The notes under the pieces were generated by a model. That model made no database searches, was not told the origin of the DNA, and worked only from the letters and a program-made list of their open reading frames with translations. A stretch of DNA of 54,038 nucleotides from an uncultured Faecalibacterium sp. (lineage in GTDB: Bacteria; Bacillota; Clostridia; Oscillospirales; Ruminococcaceae). The stretch lies in assembly GCA_944386015.1 (NCBI GenBank), contig CALWZK010000008.1, positions 1 through 54,038 on the forward strand, in the 5' to 3' direction. Both the position numbers and the translations under genes were made by a program. Shown here piece by piece: positions 5,468-38,873 of this stretch (position 1 is the stretch's first letter; each line of letters opens with the position of its first letter).

Positions 5468-5487
5468 ATAGAATACTCAAAACGCCC

Positions 5488-5655
5488 CAGGGTGCCCGGG
5501 GCCGGAAGGCCGGCCGGGAGAATAGGGAAACAGGTGAAAAACCTGTGCGGGACCGCCGCCGTAAGGGAGGAGCGCCGGGCCATACTGTCACTGCATGGAA
5601 GATGCGGGAAGACGGGCCGGCGCGCTGATCCCCGAGCCGGAAGACCTGCCCTGCC
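5488..5655 (+). promoter_or_regulatory. Cobalamin riboswitch
   Basis: Hallmark blocks occur in order: GGTGCCCGGGGCCGGAAGG, GAGAATAGGGAA (5518 onward), CAGGTGAAAAACCTGTGCGG, CCGCCGCCGTAAG, GTCACTGCATGG, GGGAAGACGG and the closing GCCGGAAGACCTGCC. It binds adenosylcobalamin-type ligands and should switch off the downstream genes when B12 is abundant, using the terminator at 5778-5822. Confidence 0.93.
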
Positions 5656-5777
5656 GGCAAATCCTGCAAGCGCTCCGGGCTGCCGGCCCGGGGCGGGAGG
5701 GCAGACCCCGCCCGGCGGACGGACCAAACGCCGGGGCGGCACACCAGCGCGCCGCTCTGGAACACGTTTTGCACAGG

Positions 5778-10982: not shown

Positions 10983-12166
10983 CTTTGGTGGGGCTGGGGG
11001 CCTCGGCGGCCACCCTCACCGCAGAGGGGGAAAAGGCCCTGCGGGCCGCCGCCCGGATTGTGGGGGCCAGGCGTCTGCTGGACGCCCTGCCCCCGGATTA
11101 CACCGCCCAGCGGGTGGCCGCCGCCCGGTATGAGGATGTGCTGGCGGCGGTGCTGGCATCTCCCGGGCCCTGCGCGGCCCTCTACAGCGGGGATACCGGC
11201 TTTTATTCAGGGGCGGCGGGCCTGCTGGAACGTCTGGCCCAAAATGGAATCCCCGCCAAAGTGGTGCCGGGGATTTCCAGCGTCCAGCTGCTGGCGGCCC
11301 GGCTGGGCCGGCCCTGGCAGGACTGGAAGCTGGTGTCGGCCCACGGCACCGGCTGCGACCCGGTGGCCGCCGTCTGCGGGGGCCGGCCGGTGTTTTTCCT
11401 CACCGGCGGCAAGGGCACCGGCCCCGCCGACCTCTGCGCCCGTCTGGCCCAAGCAGGCCTGGAAGACCTGCCGGTGACGGTGGGGGAGAACCTGGGCTGC
11501 CCCGATGAGGCCCTCACCAGCGGCACAGCCGGTGAGCTGGCAAAGCGGGCCTTCGGGCCCCTGGCGGTGCTGCTGGCCCAGCCGGCCCCCCGGGCCGCTG
11601 CCCGCACCCCCGGCTGGCCCGACGGCACTTTCACCCGGGCCGAGGCCATCCCCATGACCAAACAGGCCATCCGGGCCCAGGCCCTGGCCCAGCTGGCTCT
11701 CCGCCCCGGGGAGACCGCCTGGGACGTGGGGGCAGGCACCGGCAGTGTCAGCCTGGAGCTGGCCTTTGCCAACGGGGGCGCCCCGGTGTATGCGGTGGAG
11801 TGCCTGCCCGAGGCCTGCGCCTTGATCGAAGAAAACCGCCGCCGGCTGGGGGGCTGGAACATCCGTGTGGTGGAGGGCAAAGCCCCGGAAGCCCTGGCGG
11901 GCCTGCCCGCCCCCGACGCCGTCTTCATCGGCGGCACCCGGGGCCAGCTGGAACCCATCCTGGCGGCGGCCTGGCAGGCCAACCCCGACGCCCGGGTCTG
12001 CATCACGGCGGTGACGGTGGAAACCCTGGCCGCCGCCGTGGCGGGGATCACCGCCCTGGGCCGGAAAGCCCAGGTCACCCAGATCGGGGCGGCCCACACC
12101 GGGGAGGGCAAAATCCACCTGCTGCGGGCCGAAAACCCCATCTTCCTCATCACCGCCCATGGATAA
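10970..12166 (+). CDS. cbiET: Cobalt-precorrin-6B C5- and C15-methyltransferase/decarboxylase (CbiE-CbiT fusion)
   Basis: One 398-residue protein combines two activities. Residues about 1-200 are the CbiE tetrapyrrole methylase (VGLGASAATLT, YSGDTGFYSGA, VPGISSVQLLA). Residues about 215-398 are CbiT with the Rossmann SAM motif WDVGAGTGSVSLELA; CbiT also decarboxylates the acetate side chain. This is the CobL-type arrangement. AAAGGCGG precedes the ATG. Confidence 0.93.
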   Translation: MEQVTLVGLGASAATLTAEGEKALRAAARIVGARRLLDALPPDYTAQRVAAARYEDVLAAVLASPGPCAALYSGDTGFYSGAAGLLERLAQNGIPAKVVPGISSVQLLAARLGRPWQDWKLVSAHGTGCDPVAAVCGGRPVFFLTGGKGTGPADLCARLAQAGLEDLPVTVGENLGCPDEALTSGTAGELAKRAFGPLAVLLAQPAPRAAARTPGWPDGTFTRAEAIPMTKQAIRAQALAQLALRPGETAWDVGAGTGSVSLELAFANGGAPVYAVECLPEACALIEENRRRLGGWNIRVVEGKAPEALAGLPAPDAVFIGGTRGQLEPILAAAWQANPDARVCITAVTVETLAAAVAGITALGRKAQVTQIGAAHTGEGKIHLLRAENPIFLITAHG

Positions 12167-23854: not shown

Positions 23855-23883
23855 TGGAGCGGGTAATCGGAATCGAACCGTCG
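23855..23883 (-). other. tRNA 3' fragment, probable attL (tRNA-Gly)
   Basis: On the minus strand GGTTCGATTCC followed by GATTACCCGCTCCA is a T-arm plus acceptor 3' strand with encoded CCA. Discriminator U and the acceptor TACCCGC fit tRNA-Gly (5' GCGGGTA). No anticodon or D-arm lies upstream, and the T-stem pairing breaks after about three bases, which places the crossover there. The whole tRNA should lie at the other prophage end, outside the window. Confidence 0.75.
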
Positions 23884-24017: not shown

Positions 24018-25157
24018 TCAGCCGTGGGCCTGCTTGAATGCCTCGGTGCTGGCCTGGGCAAGCTGCTCCCGCTGGCCCTCCACTTCATGGCCATAGACAC
24101 CCTGGGTGTCCATGTTTTTGCTGTGGCCCACCAGCAGCTTCAGCTGGCCGTCGTTCATCGCTGCTGCATTGACGCTGACAAACGTGTGCCGCAGCTCATA
24201 GAGGCTGACAGGAGGATCGATCCCGTTGGCTGCCTGGTAGCGCTTCCAACGGCGGTACAAGGCCCGCTCGGATCCGACGGGAAAGAGCGGGGTGGCATAG
24301 TTGATCTCGATCCCGGAAGCATGGAGAAGATCCACCTGAGCTTCATAGGCCGCGCGGGCGTCGGCGTTCATATCGAAAGACCGGACGGCGTTTTCGTTTT
24401 TGCCCTGGGTGGTTTCGTTGTGGATATTGATGGAGCGCCGGAGGTTGACAGTGTTGCCTTTGATGTCGCCGTAGTAGAGGCCAACCAGTTCGCCAGGCCG
24501 CACACCGGTGGCAACGACAAACCGATAAGCATAGATGAAATCGTCGAAAATGGTTTTTTTGTGCCAGCTGCGGGTGTCCACAGAGAACAGGATCTGCAGC
24601 GCGGTGGGCTGAAGGATCTTTTTCCCACACAGCCGTGCGCCCTTTGGAATGGACAAATTTTCGGGGAAAAGGGTGGTGTACTTGTGGAAGCGGCACCACT
24701 TGAGGAAGGAACGCTCCACAGATCGGATGCCCTGCAGGGTCTTTTTGCTCAGGGGCCGGCCCAGGGGCTTGCGCTGCCGGTCCTTTTTCAGGCAGCCCTG
24801 TTTGTAAGCCTTATTCAGGACGGTCTGCAGGTGCCCCTCGTTCAGATCTCCGATTTTCAGAGCGCCGCAGACCGGGAGAATATAGTATTCACCATATTTC
24901 CGGCATTCGCTCAGGTAGGATGTCCCGGCGGTAGCAGCCAGCTCTTCCAGCCAGTCGGCATAAAGCCTGGACACCTTGGTGGATGTGTTGGCGATCCCGT
25001 CATCCAGCCAGGCGTCCGCCTTTGCGTTGGCTTCCCGCTGACCGGTGCGGCCTGGCTTAAAGCTGTAAAAGCTGCGGCGCTTGCCGTCCTTTTGCACATC
25101 AATTTTCCAGCGGCCCTGTTTTTCCTGCCAGGCAGCGGTATTTGTTCGCTTTCCCAT
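24018..25157 (-). CDS. int: Tyrosine-type phage integrase
   Basis: Catalyses integration and excision at the tRNA site. 379 residues: an N-terminal arm-binding part, a SAM-like core-binding domain (about 60-160) and the catalytic domain with Arg220 (ATGVRPGEL), Arg323 (YELRHTF; the usual first His of this box is Tyr320), His345 (VGHS) and nucleophile Tyr355 (GVYGHE). Start at 25157 chosen because AAGGAGG precedes it. It points toward the attachment site, which is the usual layout. Confidence 0.93.
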   Translation of the reverse strand: MGKRTNTAAWQEKQGRWKIDVQKDGKRRSFYSFKPGRTGQREANAKADAWLDDGIANTSTKVSRLYADWLEELAATAGTSYLSECRKYGEYYILPVCGALKIGDLNEGHLQTVLNKAYKQGCLKKDRQRKPLGRPLSKKTLQGIRSVERSFLKWCRFHKYTTLFPENLSIPKGARLCGKKILQPTALQILFSVDTRSWHKKTIFDDFIYAYRFVVATGVRPGELVGLYYGDIKGNTVNLRRSINIHNETTQGKNENAVRSFDMNADARAAYEAQVDLLHASGIEINYATPLFPVGSERALYRRWKRYQAANGIDPPVSLYELRHTFVSVNAAAMNDGQLKLLVGHSKNMDTQGVYGHEVEGQREQLAQASTEAFKQAHG

Positions 25158-25182
25158 AAAAATCCTCCTTGGGTGGGTATGA

Positions 25183-25211
25183 TTGACAGACCCCGCCCAA
25201 AGAGGTATAAT
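25183..25211 (+). promoter_or_regulatory. Perfect consensus sigma-70 promoter of a small RNA
   Basis: TTGACA (25183-25188), exactly 17 bases, TATAAT (25206-25211). It is divergent from the integrase and no coding sequence with a start site follows. Confidence 0.85.
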
Positions 25212-25217
25212 CACACT

Positions 25218-28749: not shown

Positions 28750-28987
28750 TTTAAGATCCAAGATTTCACGCCCGGAAGAAAGACGCCTGGCGGCCCTGTA
28801 TCTGGTGGATCGCAGATCGGGGCATGCAGAATACCGGATTGGCTGCTTGACCAGAAGGAGAGGTTCCAACACAAAGCTGTGGTGGGAGGACGCTTCTGGG
28901 GTTCAGGATCTGGCACGATCCCGCGACCGGTATGACATCCAATGGAGTTATGTGGATCCCTGTGACGGATCACACTGCGGCCCCTGA
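28727..28987 (+). CDS. Hypothetical phage protein
   Basis: 86 residues, basic first half (LRSKISRPEERRLAALYLVD), no recognised domain. AAAGGAG before the ATG. Confidence 0.55.
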   Translation: MNIWRTLDLRSKISRPEERRLAALYLVDRRSGHAEYRIGCLTRRRGSNTKLWWEDASGVQDLARSRDRYDIQWSYVDPCDGSHCGP

Positions 28988-28998
28988 GGCCGCTCTAA

Positions 28999-29046
28999 GG
29001 GGTGCCGCAGCAGGCTGCCAGCCGGTTCGAGCCCGGCGCACCCGGT
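28999..29046 (+). ncRNA. tRNA-like element 1
   Basis: GGGTGC (29000-29005) pairs with GCACCC (29038-29043). A 4-bp hairpin follows (GCAG, CAGG loop, CTGC; 29007-29018), then a canonical T-arm: GCCGG, TTCGAGC loop, CCGGC (29021-29037). No anticodon arm of normal size is present, so it is not a working tRNA. It looks like acceptor stem plus T-arm plus a stub. Confidence 0.55.
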
Positions 29047-29438
29047 CAGGTTTGCATGAGATGGCGGAACCTGTGGTGGCCGCGAAAAACGGCAGCGCTC
29101 AAACTCCGGCGCCGGCAAGGGCGTGAAAGCCGTCCTCGCTGCAGGATCGAAGGGGAGTGTTTCATACTTTGGCCCCCCGCCCGGCGGCATCCGGGCAGGC
29201 CGACCGCGGCCAACGCGGCAGGCGGGGGAGAGTCCCTCCGCCCCCTCTGTCTGGTGCGCCCTGGCAGAGGGCTCTATGTGGGCCGAGAGGCCCGGTGTGC
29301 TGCCGGGATTCCCTGTCCGACATCCCGGCGGCATGGGTACCAATACCACCCGGATCTGGAGCCGGGCAAGTTCCCCAGAGGCGGCCCGGCCCAAGGGCAC
29401 CCCCATCCATTCCGGTGCGCGGGGATGGGGGTTGGATG

Positions 29439-29483
29439 TGCGGCGGGTGGTCCCTTGCGCCGGTTCGATCCCGGCGGGCCGCA
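29439..29483 (+). ncRNA. tRNA-like element 2
   Basis: Same plan as element 1. TGCGGC (29439-29444) pairs with GCCGCA (29478-29483), a small hairpin GGG-TGGT-CCC follows (29445-29454), then a T-arm GCCGG, TTCGATC, CCGGC (29459-29475). It ends 25 bases before the next start codon, just upstream of that gene's ribosome binding site. Confidence 0.55.
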
Positions 29484-29507
29484 AATACGCGAAAGGAGTA
29501 CATACAG

Positions 29508-30212
29508 ATGGGATTTTCCCAGGAAATGTCTGAAACCAAGACCGCGGTGGCCCAGCTGGCTTCCTGGTGCCTGACGGTGGCCCTTCACCAGGAGTTCGGC
29601 ATCGGCGCCGGCCGGCTGGAACGTCTGGCCAAGGTGCTGCGGCGGATCCAGGAGGAAAATGTGGCCGCCGTCCTCGGCCAGGGCACAAAGGCAGCCGTCC
29701 GCCAGCGGGAAGGCTGGATCCAGGGCAAGGTGGAGATGGATTTCCCGGTGCCGCTGCTGCGGGCGCCCCGCACCCGCCGGGAAAAACAGCTGCGGATGGC
29801 GGGGGATGAAGCTGCGGCCACCGCCTGGCAGATCTACGCCGCCGGGGTCATCCAGGAGTTCAAGTTCGGCCCCGACCGGCTGGAACGGCTGCGGCAGGCT
29901 GGCCGGGACAACTACCGGCAGTTCAACCAGTGGGCGTCTGAGGACGGCCTGGAGGTGGCCATGGAGCGGCTGCGGCGGTGCGTCCATGCCGCCCTCCAGG
30001 AGGAGGTGCGGATCGTGGACGAGCGGTCCTCCCATTACCGGGAGGACGCCGCCGCCATGGAACAGGACCTGCGGGCCACCCAGGCGGTGGCCGAACGGAT
30101 CCGGGCCTCCAGAGTGCTGGCGGTGCCTGGCATTTCCCACACCGACGCCGAGAAGGGGGAGATCTTCGCCCGCTGCGCCGCCGAGACTGCCAACATCTGG
30201 CGGCACAGATAG
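29508..30212 (+). CDS. Hypothetical helical phage protein with internal duplication
   Basis: 234 residues, strongly helical. Two related segments, HQEFGIGAGRLERLAKVLRR and IQEFKFGPDRLERLRQAGR, suggest an internal repeat of about 80 residues. No known family recognised. AAAGGAG before the ATG. Confidence 0.7.
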   Translation: MGFSQEMSETKTAVAQLASWCLTVALHQEFGIGAGRLERLAKVLRRIQEENVAAVLGQGTKAAVRQREGWIQGKVEMDFPVPLLRAPRTRREKQLRMAGDEAAATAWQIYAAGVIQEFKFGPDRLERLRQAGRDNYRQFNQWASEDGLEVAMERLRRCVHAALQEEVRIVDERSSHYREDAAAMEQDLRATQAVAERIRASRVLAVPGISHTDAEKGEIFARCAAETANIWRHR

Positions 30213-32979: not shown

Positions 32980-33010
32980 CGCTCTGCCCGGTTGGGCGGG
33001 GCGCTTTGTC
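32980..33010 (+). terminator. Possible terminator between early genes and replication block
   Basis: GCGC-CTGCCC pairs with GGGCGGGGCGC, then TTTGT. Weak T-tract; partial termination or processing site. Confidence 0.4.
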
Positions 33011-33042
33011 AAACCGGCCGCAAGGCCGTGAAAGGAGTTGTC

Positions 33043-33777
33043 ATGCAAAGCGAGAACCGGGAGTCCTTTGTGTTTTACCGGTCGTTTCTGGGGGCCATCC
33101 AGGAGATGGAACAGGCCGACCAGCTGGCCATGTTCTGGGCCATCTGCAATTATGCCCTGACGGGGGAGGAACCGGCGCTGCAGTCCGCCATCCAGCGGGC
33201 AGTGTTCGCCGTGATCCGGCCCAGCATCGACACCAACATCGCCAAACGGGATGGCGGAAAGCGTGGCGGACGCCCCAGAACGCGAACCGAAAAAACCATA
33301 CCTCAAAATGCAGAAACCATAGGTTTTGAAAATAAAAACCTTCCCGAACAAGGTTTTTCATCCGAAAACCAGGAAAGCCGGAGGTTTTCAGAACCCGAAA
33401 GCACTGTAACTGTAACTGAAGCTGTAACTGCTGCTGAAGCTGTATTCTCAGAAGACCCCGGCGGCCGCACTGACCAGGCCCTGGCGGGGATCATCCAGGA
33501 CTACGAGCAGGAGATCGGCGTTTTCCCCCGCAGCGCCCTGGACAAGCTCCAGGCCTACCGGGCCCAGGCGGGGGACCAGATGGTGCGTCTGGCCATCCAG
33601 GAGGCGGCCCAGCATAACGCCCGCAGCTGGAGCTATGTGGACGGGGTGCTGTCCACCTGGCGGAAAGAAGGGGTCAAGACCCCCGGGGACCTGGCGGCCC
33701 GCCGGGAGAAAATGCGCAGCCGGCGGCAGCAGCCGCAGCAGCCGGCGCCGGAACCCCGGTATGAGGTGCTGACATGA
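33043..33777 (+). CDS. DnaD-like replication initiation protein
   Basis: 244 residues. The N-terminal half (ESFVFYRSFLGAIQEMEQAD) matches phage replication proteins of the DUF6291 type; the C-terminal part (about 160-225) resembles a DnaD domain ending in SYVDGVLSTW. A Thr/Val/Glu-rich linker between them is encoded by repeats of CTGTAACTG. Together with the helicase next door it should load the replication fork. AAAGGAG decides the ATG. Confidence 0.75.
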   Translation: MQSENRESFVFYRSFLGAIQEMEQADQLAMFWAICNYALTGEEPALQSAIQRAVFAVIRPSIDTNIAKRDGGKRGGRPRTRTEKTIPQNAETIGFENKNLPEQGFSSENQESRRFSEPESTVTVTEAVTAAEAVFSEDPGGRTDQALAGIIQDYEQEIGVFPRSALDKLQAYRAQAGDQMVRLAIQEAAQHNARSWSYVDGVLSTWRKEGVKTPGDLAARREKMRSRRQQPQQPAPEPRYEVLT

Positions 33778-38513: not shown

Positions 38514-38550
38514 GATGTCATTGAATGTCACATTCCGGGCGTGGTATCCT
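38514..38550 (+). promoter_or_regulatory. Probable late promoter with activator repeats
   Basis: ATGTCA occurs twice four bases apart (38515-38531), overlapping TTGAAT (38521-38526), which is 18 bases from TATCCT (38545-38550). Weak core boxes plus repeats at the activator gene's end fit an activator-dependent promoter. Confidence 0.5.
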
Positions 38551-38797
38551 GTATTTGTGAAAGCCGCAGGCGGGGAGAAAATCCCTGCCAGCGGTTTTTT
38601 CTTTGGCTGCCATGCAGGCCAGAGAACACCCCGCGGCCGGAGGCGGGTAAGTCCCCCGGCAGCGGCCCGGCTGAAGGGCAGGCCCCCACGACTGATCGGG
38701 GGCCTTTTTCATGCGGGCAGCCTGATGCAAAGGGGTGTTTGTCAGCCATGGCCATGGCAGACGCCCTGAAGAAGTTCACCGCTTCGGCCCGCTCCAT
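38551..38797 (+). other. Non-coding leader between late promoter and tRNA
   Basis: Contains a hairpin with T-tract (GGC-GGGA/TCCC-GCC, then GGTTTTTTCTTT, about 38570-38606) and the terminator at 38681-38709. Next is a 19-codon frame (MAMADALKKFTASARSMSL, 38748-38807) that ends inside the tRNA and may be the remnant of a gene. Confidence 0.5.
38681..38709 (+). terminator. Intrinsic terminator before the tRNA
   Basis: GGCCCCC and GGGGGCC pair around a 10-base loop, then TTTTTC. Confidence 0.8.
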
Positions 38798-38873
38798 GTC
38801 GCTGTAGCGCAGCTGGAAGCGCACCTGTTTTGGGAACAGGAGGCCGCGGGTTCGAGTCCCGCCGGCGGCACCA
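38798..38873 (+). tRNA. tRNA-Pro (anticodon UGG)
   Basis: Complete cloverleaf with encoded CCA. Acceptor GTCGCTG pairs with CGGCGGC using two G-U pairs. The D-arm is GCGC-AGCTGGAA-GCGC, the anticodon arm CCTGT-TTTGGGA-ACAGG, and the T-arm GCGGG-TTCGAGT-CCCGC. It lies inside the prophage at the junction of replication and packaging genes. Confidence 0.9.

Follow-up and report, generated by a model that had tools for sequence, protein, structure and literature searches.

A conserved, probably structured non-coding segment with two tRNA-like T-arm elements and a repeated pseudoknot unit in Faecalibacterium prophages

Introduction

Large structured RNAs are found in phages and prophages, and two of them, ROOL and GOLLD, are prophage RNAs that often lie near tRNA islands and have no described function yet (PMC12286853). 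Other phage RNAs are natural substrates of RNase P, which cleaves models made of an acceptor stem, a T-stem and a T-loop; examples are the M3 and C4 RNAs, located in phage transcripts (PMC11143913), and the non-tRNA substrates of this enzyme also comprise tmRNA, 4.5S RNA and MALAT1 (PMC11143913, PMC4919913). RNAs that present a T-stem-acceptor stack are expected to be cut, and the D-loop appears to be dispensable (PMC4919913). The HK022 put sequence is a structured phage RNA of the early operon that acts as an antitermination element on the nascent transcript (PMC9378689). Prophage hammerhead ribozymes are RNA elements that flank phage genes and have been proposed as cutters of long transcripts (PMC3088659).

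The segment described here is carried by a prophage within a stretch of 54,038 nucleotides from an uncultured Faecalibacterium sp. (contig CALWZK010000008.1), called the window below. It resembles ROOL and GOLLD as a structured prophage RNA, one copy of whose module lies near a tRNA, and differs from them in being modular and repeated instead of having one fixed fold, and no ROOL or GOLLD covariance model of Rfam matched at its gathering score. Two T-arm elements in the segment share the acceptor, T-stem and T-loop of RNase P substrates and, like M3 and C4, would be part of a phage transcript; unlike those substrates, they have no 3' CCA and occur as two copies that bracket one RNA. Put is a structured phage RNA within the early operon, and here a structured unit stands at the head of the early operon and also of the late one, beside hairpins; unlike put, which reportedly folds into two stem-loops, this unit is a pseudoknot and its late copy is placed between two terminator-like hairpins. 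The likeness to the prophage hammerheads lies in RNA elements that flank phage genes and may cut a transcript, with the difference that the segment has no hammerhead match and that host enzymes would be needed.

In the Rfam searches, one at a permissive cut-off included, the segment yielded no family that reached its own cut-off; at the late copy of the module the single family to do so was tRNA. The family DUF3800-XI (RF02975) matched weakly at both pseudoknots, with 11.3 and 15.6 bits, far below the cut-off of 37.8, and Pfam, applied to 9 proteins of the window, gave no match to DUF3800. Readings as a hammerhead or HDV ribozyme were set aside with no Rfam match, and tmRNA with no match in Rfam or ARAGORN. 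Among the titles and abstracts found, none names the RNA of this segment, and the main texts of three surveys of candidate RNAs do not mention Faecalibacterium (PMC11109978, PMC8632094, PMC8040213).

The segment, its setting and its distribution

The prophage of the window has an integrase gene (24018-25214), a repressor, replication genes, a terminase and a portal. The segment, at 28973-29507 (+), belongs to its early region and is located between a short reading frame ending at 28987 and a gene at 29508-30212 (+), whose product of 234 amino acids is assigned to phrog_24484, of unknown function. This protein has no match in Pfam or PADLOC, and its AlphaFold2 model (mean pLDDT 57.7) is not usable. 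Beside the integrase gene, at 23869-23879 (-), there is an apparent tRNA 3' end that lacks the rest of the gene, likely the attachment site; a nearly identical 3' end is found within an intact tRNA (G000:C15:35676-35747, L104). The host part of the window contains a T-box leader (2595-2850, -), a cobalamin riboswitch (5473-5667, +) and an ARAGORN call of tRNA-Arg (11840-11923, -), which lies inside a long host reading frame, is absent from the Rfam matches and is probably false.

Four distinct phages carry the segment: that of the window, that of IMG/VR contig 2788500450 (L011 and L020), that of Faecalibacterium sp. An122 (G236), which agrees with IMG/VR contig 2788500446 (L019) over the aligned part, and that of G396. 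Carriers from the same genus include Faecalibacterium sp. An122 and uncultured Faecalibacterium from chicken, and the segment-bearing prophages belong to Faecalibacterium or its relatives. In a fifth contig, L077, the first T-arm element (element 1) and the next hairpin are retained, and neither the remainder nor the downstream gene is there; at least one contig is thus devoid of the cassette. At this deletion (L077 8045-8162), element 1 and its hairpin stand directly before the gene that elsewhere comes after the phrog_24484 gene. Reading by eye places the stop of the upstream frame within the first hairpin (window 28973-28989) in the window, L011 and G396, and one extra base in G236 and L077 lets that frame continue through element 1.

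No conserved protein frame, which the preliminary description had named as a finding that would refute it, runs across the segment. All six frames have stops in G236, one plus frame is open in G396, and a single minus frame is open in the window and likewise in L011. Every one of the six phage pairs compared shows indels of 1-2 bases, and the three relative frames are mixed, least between the window and G396 (409 of 522 aligned columns in one frame). Each codon position receives about the same share of the substitutions, as with 19, 19 and 17 between the window and L011. We consider it highly probable that a conserved structured RNA exists here.

Within the collections searched, the RNA is confined to this group of phages. 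Strong copies of the pseudoknot unit were found in 3 of 31 genomes of the genus and in 2 of 327 drawn from the family, a draw that did not contain G396, and a DNA search of phage and plasmid collections gave no match to the early segment. The loci with more distant relatives of the phrog_24484 gene (L015-L018 and L208) showed no convincing RNA copy; the best R3 match among them had an E value of 0.063 (L016), and L018 was outside that search and was read only.

The two T-arm elements

Element 1 (29000-29043, +) is a T-arm minihelix with an enclosed hairpin: the acceptor GGGTGC/GCACCC (29000-29005 / 29038-29043, +) surrounds the hairpin GCAG-CAGG-CTGC (29007-29018, +) and the T-arm GCCGG-TTCGAGC-CCGGC (29021-29037, +). 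Element 2 (29439-29483, +) is composed of the acceptor TGCGGC/GCCGCA (29439-29444 / 29478-29483, +), the hairpin GGG-TGGT-CCC (29445-29454, +) and the T-arm GCCGG-TTCGATC-CCGGC (29459-29475, +), with GTGGTCC/GGGCCGC (29447-29453 / 29476-29482, +) as an alternative acceptor pairing. One 18-nt repeat with one mismatch contains the T-arms of both. The preliminary description had reported two tRNA-like elements in this region, and its observation is partly confirmed and largely right: both are present as it described them, and their acceptors differ yet pair. It had also given them the same order and spacing; the order holds and the spacing is not quite equal, since element 2 has two extra bases between the T-stem and the acceptor, which can be read instead as a 6-bp T-stem with a bulge.

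Each element has a TTCGANN loop beside an acceptor-like stem, and each could present, counting possible pairs only, the acceptor-T-stem stack and T-loop-like loop of an RNase P substrate. The stacked pairs possible in the window number 11 for element 1 and 12 for element 2 in either pairing, one of them with a bulge, and 11 are possible in the alternative pairing of element 2 in L011. No 3' RCCA was found, there being no CCA after either element in the window or in the relatives: GCACCC of element 1 is followed by GG (window) or AG (relatives), and GCCGCA of element 2 by AAT. No cloverleaf was detected either, as neither element is called a tRNA by ARAGORN or by Rfam RF00005.

Conservation of the stems across homologues had been set beforehand as a check that could refute the elements. 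The acceptor and T stems pair in four of four phages, those of element 1 in five of five when L077 is included. The compensatory changes that had been hoped for did not appear in either minihelix, because the T-arms and the 3' acceptor strands are almost invariant; only one single-sided change was seen, in G236, where a C in the acceptor of element 2 is replaced by T. The loop of element 1 is TCCGAGC in G236 and L077. The hairpin of element 2 is intact in the window and G396, shifted in L011 and lost in G236, and the best fold of this element is made of the first acceptor pairing and the hairpin in the window and G396 (in L011 with the shifted hairpin), and of the pairing GTGGTCC/GGGCCGC in G236 and in the RNAalifold consensus of the four phages. 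When a wider context of element 1 is folded with RNAalifold, the 5' acceptor strand pairs with an upstream arm instead of the 3' acceptor strand.

Over 28985-29507, 113 of 523 columns vary among the four phages, and 7 of 89 do so in both elements together (2 of 44 in element 1, 5 of 45 in element 2), a level as low as which is seen in 1.7% of random window pairs of the segment. In element 2 the 25 columns at 29459-29483, which hold its T-arm and 3' strand, are all invariant. The pre-gene stretch 29484-29507 is equally conserved (1 of 24 columns variable, against 12 of 53 at the start of the gene), and conservation near element 2 may therefore partly reflect the ribosome site.

The pseudoknot unit and its late copy

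The sequence between the elements can form a series of hairpins, all on the plus strand. P2 (AGGTT..AACCT, 29048-29072) loses two of its five outer pairs in G236. P3 (GCCG/CGGC) and P4 (GGGCG/CGTCC), at 29079-29135, are invariant in the three phages compared. P5, P6 and P7 follow at 29180-29242; in the same three-phage comparison, G236 has A-U instead of G-C as the pair that closes P6. A module then begins with Pa (CCCTCTGTC/GGCAGAGGG) and Pb (GGGCC-GAGA-GGCCC) at 29243-29293 and continues with Pc (core pairs 29305-29326), which has lost one pair in G236 and is surrounded by diverging sequence. Next in the module come the sequence CCCGG-A-TCTGG-AG-CCGGG-YAAGTT-CCAGA, the hairpin Pd and a GC-rich hairpin. 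This sequence can form an H-type pseudoknot with the helices S1 (CCCGG/CCGGG) and S2 (TCTGG/CCAGA), which together with Pd (GCCC/GGGC) occupies 29349-29398, and the GC-rich hairpin Pe (CCCCCATCC/GGATGGGGG, 29400-29431) has no T run behind it. In G236 and G396 the module is present twice, in tandem.

Eight copies of the pseudoknot unit from the four phages (6 early and 2 late, 6 of them distinct) were used to look for covariation. Both crossing helices and Pd amount to 14 pairs and 83 cells, which are 100% paired, and when the partners are slid by 1-3 columns the pairing falls to 30-54%. Two-sided changes are found at 4 of the 14 pairs, a number reached by 8 of 500 shuffles, and the covariation score of 0.310 is reached by none of 500; these counts are not probabilities, because the copies are closely related. 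In L011, as judged by eye, helix S2 is lengthened to 8 bp with one inserted base per side, a pair that the alignment places inexactly. The unit thus has the two crossing helices of an H-type pseudoknot, with covariation support from closely related copies, and on these comparisons it is a better-supported structure than the T-arm elements; it was missed by the preliminary description.

A second, diverged copy of the module is found at 38531-38684 (+), with its pseudoknot and Pd at 38627-38682. It was detected by the covariance model R1 (E 1.9e-8), which was built from early copies only, and also by R3. The unit there is preceded by a promoter-like site, TTGAAT-18-TATCCT (38521-38550, +), directly followed by a terminator-like hairpin with a T run (38560-38600, +; z -5.47 for 38558-38650). 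Then come the unit and, abutting it, an intrinsic-terminator-like hairpin recognized by eye, GGCCCCC-loop-GGGGGCC-TTTTT (38681-38709, +), a tRNA-Pro (UGG) at 38798-38873 (+), and the terminase genes. The second hexamer of the promoter-like site is TATAGT in G396, G236 and L077, and a promoter scan found the site in G396 and not in the window, where this hexamer is degenerate. A terminator scan listed the core of the first hairpin in the window (38569-38589) and none on the plus strand of G396; the second hairpin is absent from its list, the loop limit of the scan being 8 and the loop here 10.

G396 has the same late arrangement as the window, including the tRNA-Pro, and L077 has the unit and the terminator with no tRNA called. 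In G236 the late copy ends, as read, at a junction into the small terminase gene, which it enters at an apparent internal part (L039 10900-10950, -), and G236 is possibly a defective prophage. The late loci compared were thus those of the window, G396, L077 and G236. The phage of G396 has an extra tRNA-Ser (GGA) at L038 10153-10228, not called in the window. Among viral contigs the exact late pattern occurs in L077 only, and in a DNA comparison of the late copy with phage records, six share 24-27 bases only.

Proposed mechanism

RNase Z reads the same acceptor-T-stem stack as RNase P. Since the minihelices fit the acceptor-T-stem stack and T-loop that RNase P measures, they can be viewed as RNase P sites, and tRNA mimics or processing signals, as already suggested in the preliminary description, are the leading, partly supported, reading of the elements. 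We propose that the early transcript of these prophages contains a structured RNA of modular build that codes for no protein, in which two tRNA-like minihelices with no anticodon arm would bracket a hairpin array and one or two H-type pseudoknot units. The minihelices would serve as minimal substrates of host RNase P, on the 5' side, and RNase Z, on the 3' side, which would cut the early transcript; with cuts 3' of element 1 and 5' of element 2, an RNA of about 395-403 nt would come free in the window, and processing would set the 5' end of the downstream mRNA just before the ribosome site. The pseudoknot unit would act on the nascent transcript, by attenuation or antitermination, in both the early and the late operon. 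A GC-rich hairpin stands behind the unit in the copies read, and a terminator-like one in the late copy; the early hairpin has no T run. The unit is thus positioned as a control element of nascent RNA might be, with HK022 put as the closest functioning counterpart (PMC9378689).

We hold this combined reading tentatively, giving it somewhat less than an even chance. Processing of the early transcript at the minihelices is a serious possibility of much the same order, and it is weakened mainly by the lack of CCA and of covariation. Transcription control by the pseudoknot unit is held to be only slightly less likely than processing. Other observations counted against the proposal are the alternative upstream pairing of element 1, the ordinary folding energy, the early hairpin with no T run, the late promoter scanned in G396 and not in the window, and L077, which has no cassette. 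That the two parts make up a new system, in which a pseudoknot unit at the heads of the early and late operons would control RNA polymerase in cis with no protein involved, while anticodon-less minihelices would have host enzymes excise the early copy, seems quite unlikely at present.

Alternative explanations

The T-arms may instead serve for tertiary docking within a single large, ornate RNA of the ROOL or GOLLD kind, with the segment as a stable RNA. A multi-hairpin, pseudoknotted prophage segment of about 530 nt, with a late copy beside a phage tRNA, would suit such a reading, as would the location of ROOL and GOLLD in prophages, often near tRNA islands (PMC12286853). It is nevertheless unlikely: Rfam gives no match to either family, and the parts occur separately, the pseudoknot unit with no T-arm elements in the late copy and element 1 with no pseudoknots in L077.

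Also unlikely is that the elements are shrunken remnants of tRNA genes of the phage that persist by chance or as filler. The phages do carry tRNA-Pro, and G396 also tRNA-Ser, and the geometry of T-arm and acceptor is tRNA-like. When 30 tRNA loci, out of 41 tRNA matches in the genome, were compared, however, the 3' end of element 2 reached at best 19 of 25 positions, at two tied loci of which one is the phage tRNA-Pro, and element 1 reached 16 of 22, with no T-arm among the matches listed. The invariance of the T-arm and 3' strand within a variable segment also speaks against relics, and two of them would have to have been reduced to nearly the same form.

The T-arm repeats could act as DNA, being inverted-repeat operators for the phage repressor, as the dyad GCCGG-N7-CCGGC is present twice in an early region that also has repressor genes. 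This is a rather remote prospect, given that the outer stems differ yet pair, which an operator would not need, and that the only other two occurrences of GGTTCGANNCC in the window are tRNA sequence, namely the tRNA-Pro and the apparent tRNA 3' end beside the integrase.

Chance pairing is a very improbable explanation of the stems, in spite of a GC-rich region with folding energies like those of shuffled sequence. The energies are z -0.54 for element 1 and -0.82 for element 2, +0.75 and +0.17 for their 61-nt contexts, and -0.99 for 28985-29510; they show no excess stability and were left out of the evidence. A 6-bp stem is also easily found once a T-arm is given (7 of 18 in a random sequence of window size), and so the T-arms carry most of the significance. 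Their counts argue against chance, as does the low variability across the phages: GGTTCGANNCC occurs 4 times on the two strands of the window against 0.51 expected, a number reached by none of 100 shuffles, and a T-arm enclosed by a stem of 6 bp or more was found in 2 of 3,000 random 701-base sequences (plus strand) drawn with the dinucleotide make-up of the region, whereas the real region has two. Both elements are unlikely to have arisen by chance.

A type III toxin-antitoxin-like pair, made of the pseudoknot repeats and the downstream gene, recalls the tandem pseudoknots upstream of that gene and the weak DUF3800-XI similarity at both pseudoknots, yet is barely credible, as the only downstream gene is that of phrog_24484, with no ToxN-type endoribonuclease found and no Pfam or PADLOC match for the 234-aa protein, the loci of its relatives, as read, have no RNA, and the late copy precedes tRNA and terminase genes.

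Wider occurrence and implications

We prefer the modular RNA with possibly processed minihelices to these alternatives, and the covariance models were run on other genomes as well. R1 matched 6 of 150 genomes, 3 of these weakly (all 3 aligned), and R2 matched 7 of 396, 5 weakly (all 5 aligned). With R3, 7 of 31 genomes matched, 4 weakly, and 23 of 327, 21 weakly; a rescan took in 21 of the 27 weak places found with R3, and 10 of the 21 were viewed as alignments, and in the shorter loci L060, L061, L063, L064 and L066 the match lay outside the part viewed. The weak covariance matches in other genomes were judged by eye to be chance, and there may be a distant relative of the RNA among them. The best of these is L053, where the second helix can also be formed and the reverse strand was read as coding. 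R1 also matched weakly inside the window, at 32980-33134 (E 0.039) and, on the minus strand, at the module itself; these matches were taken as chance.

The 18-nt T-arm was found in 61 viral stretches, with 62 occurrences, 28 in ARAGORN tRNA or tmRNA genes and 34 outside them. Three of these 34 are relatives of the segment, and 28 of the other 31 could be tested, 3 lying too close to the end of their contig. Of these 28, 6 fit a template that combines an acceptor, a hairpin and a T-arm, against 0.81 in shuffles, and 4 have GG in the loop against 0.28. Element 2 itself does not fit this strict template, and some of these loci are inside long open frames. Rfam found nothing in 10 of these non-tRNA loci, and a wider T-arm pattern gave 48 matches, 26 of them in tRNAs, with no new convincing case. 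A reduced form is seen in unrelated viral contigs at L154 3090-3145, L141 2845-2900, L150 2010-2080 (-), L153 4610-4680 (-) and L159 11720-11785, in which an acceptor-like stem, a small hairpin or GG-bearing loop, and a T-arm are present with no anticodon arm. Two of these five, L154 and L141, fit the strict template and the other three do not; L154 is clear of long frames. A general class of minihelices is only hinted at; the minihelix trick may be more widespread, because a few unrelated viral contigs, L154 being the best, have a similar reduced form.

The repeated pseudoknot RNA unit is, going by its covariation, the more solid discovery, and the segment may be a new phage control RNA. Set beside ROOL, GOLLD and other large structured RNAs of phages, it offers parts that can be tested: a pair of minimal tRNA-like elements for which cut sites are predicted, and a pseudoknot, backed by covariation, that is used twice in one prophage, near promoter-like and terminator-like sites. 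If the minihelices are cut, they would be a clear example from nature of a phage that uses the tRNA-processing enzymes of its host to cut a transcript. If the pseudoknot steers the polymerase, it would represent an RNA control common to early and late genes, outside the lambdoid phages.
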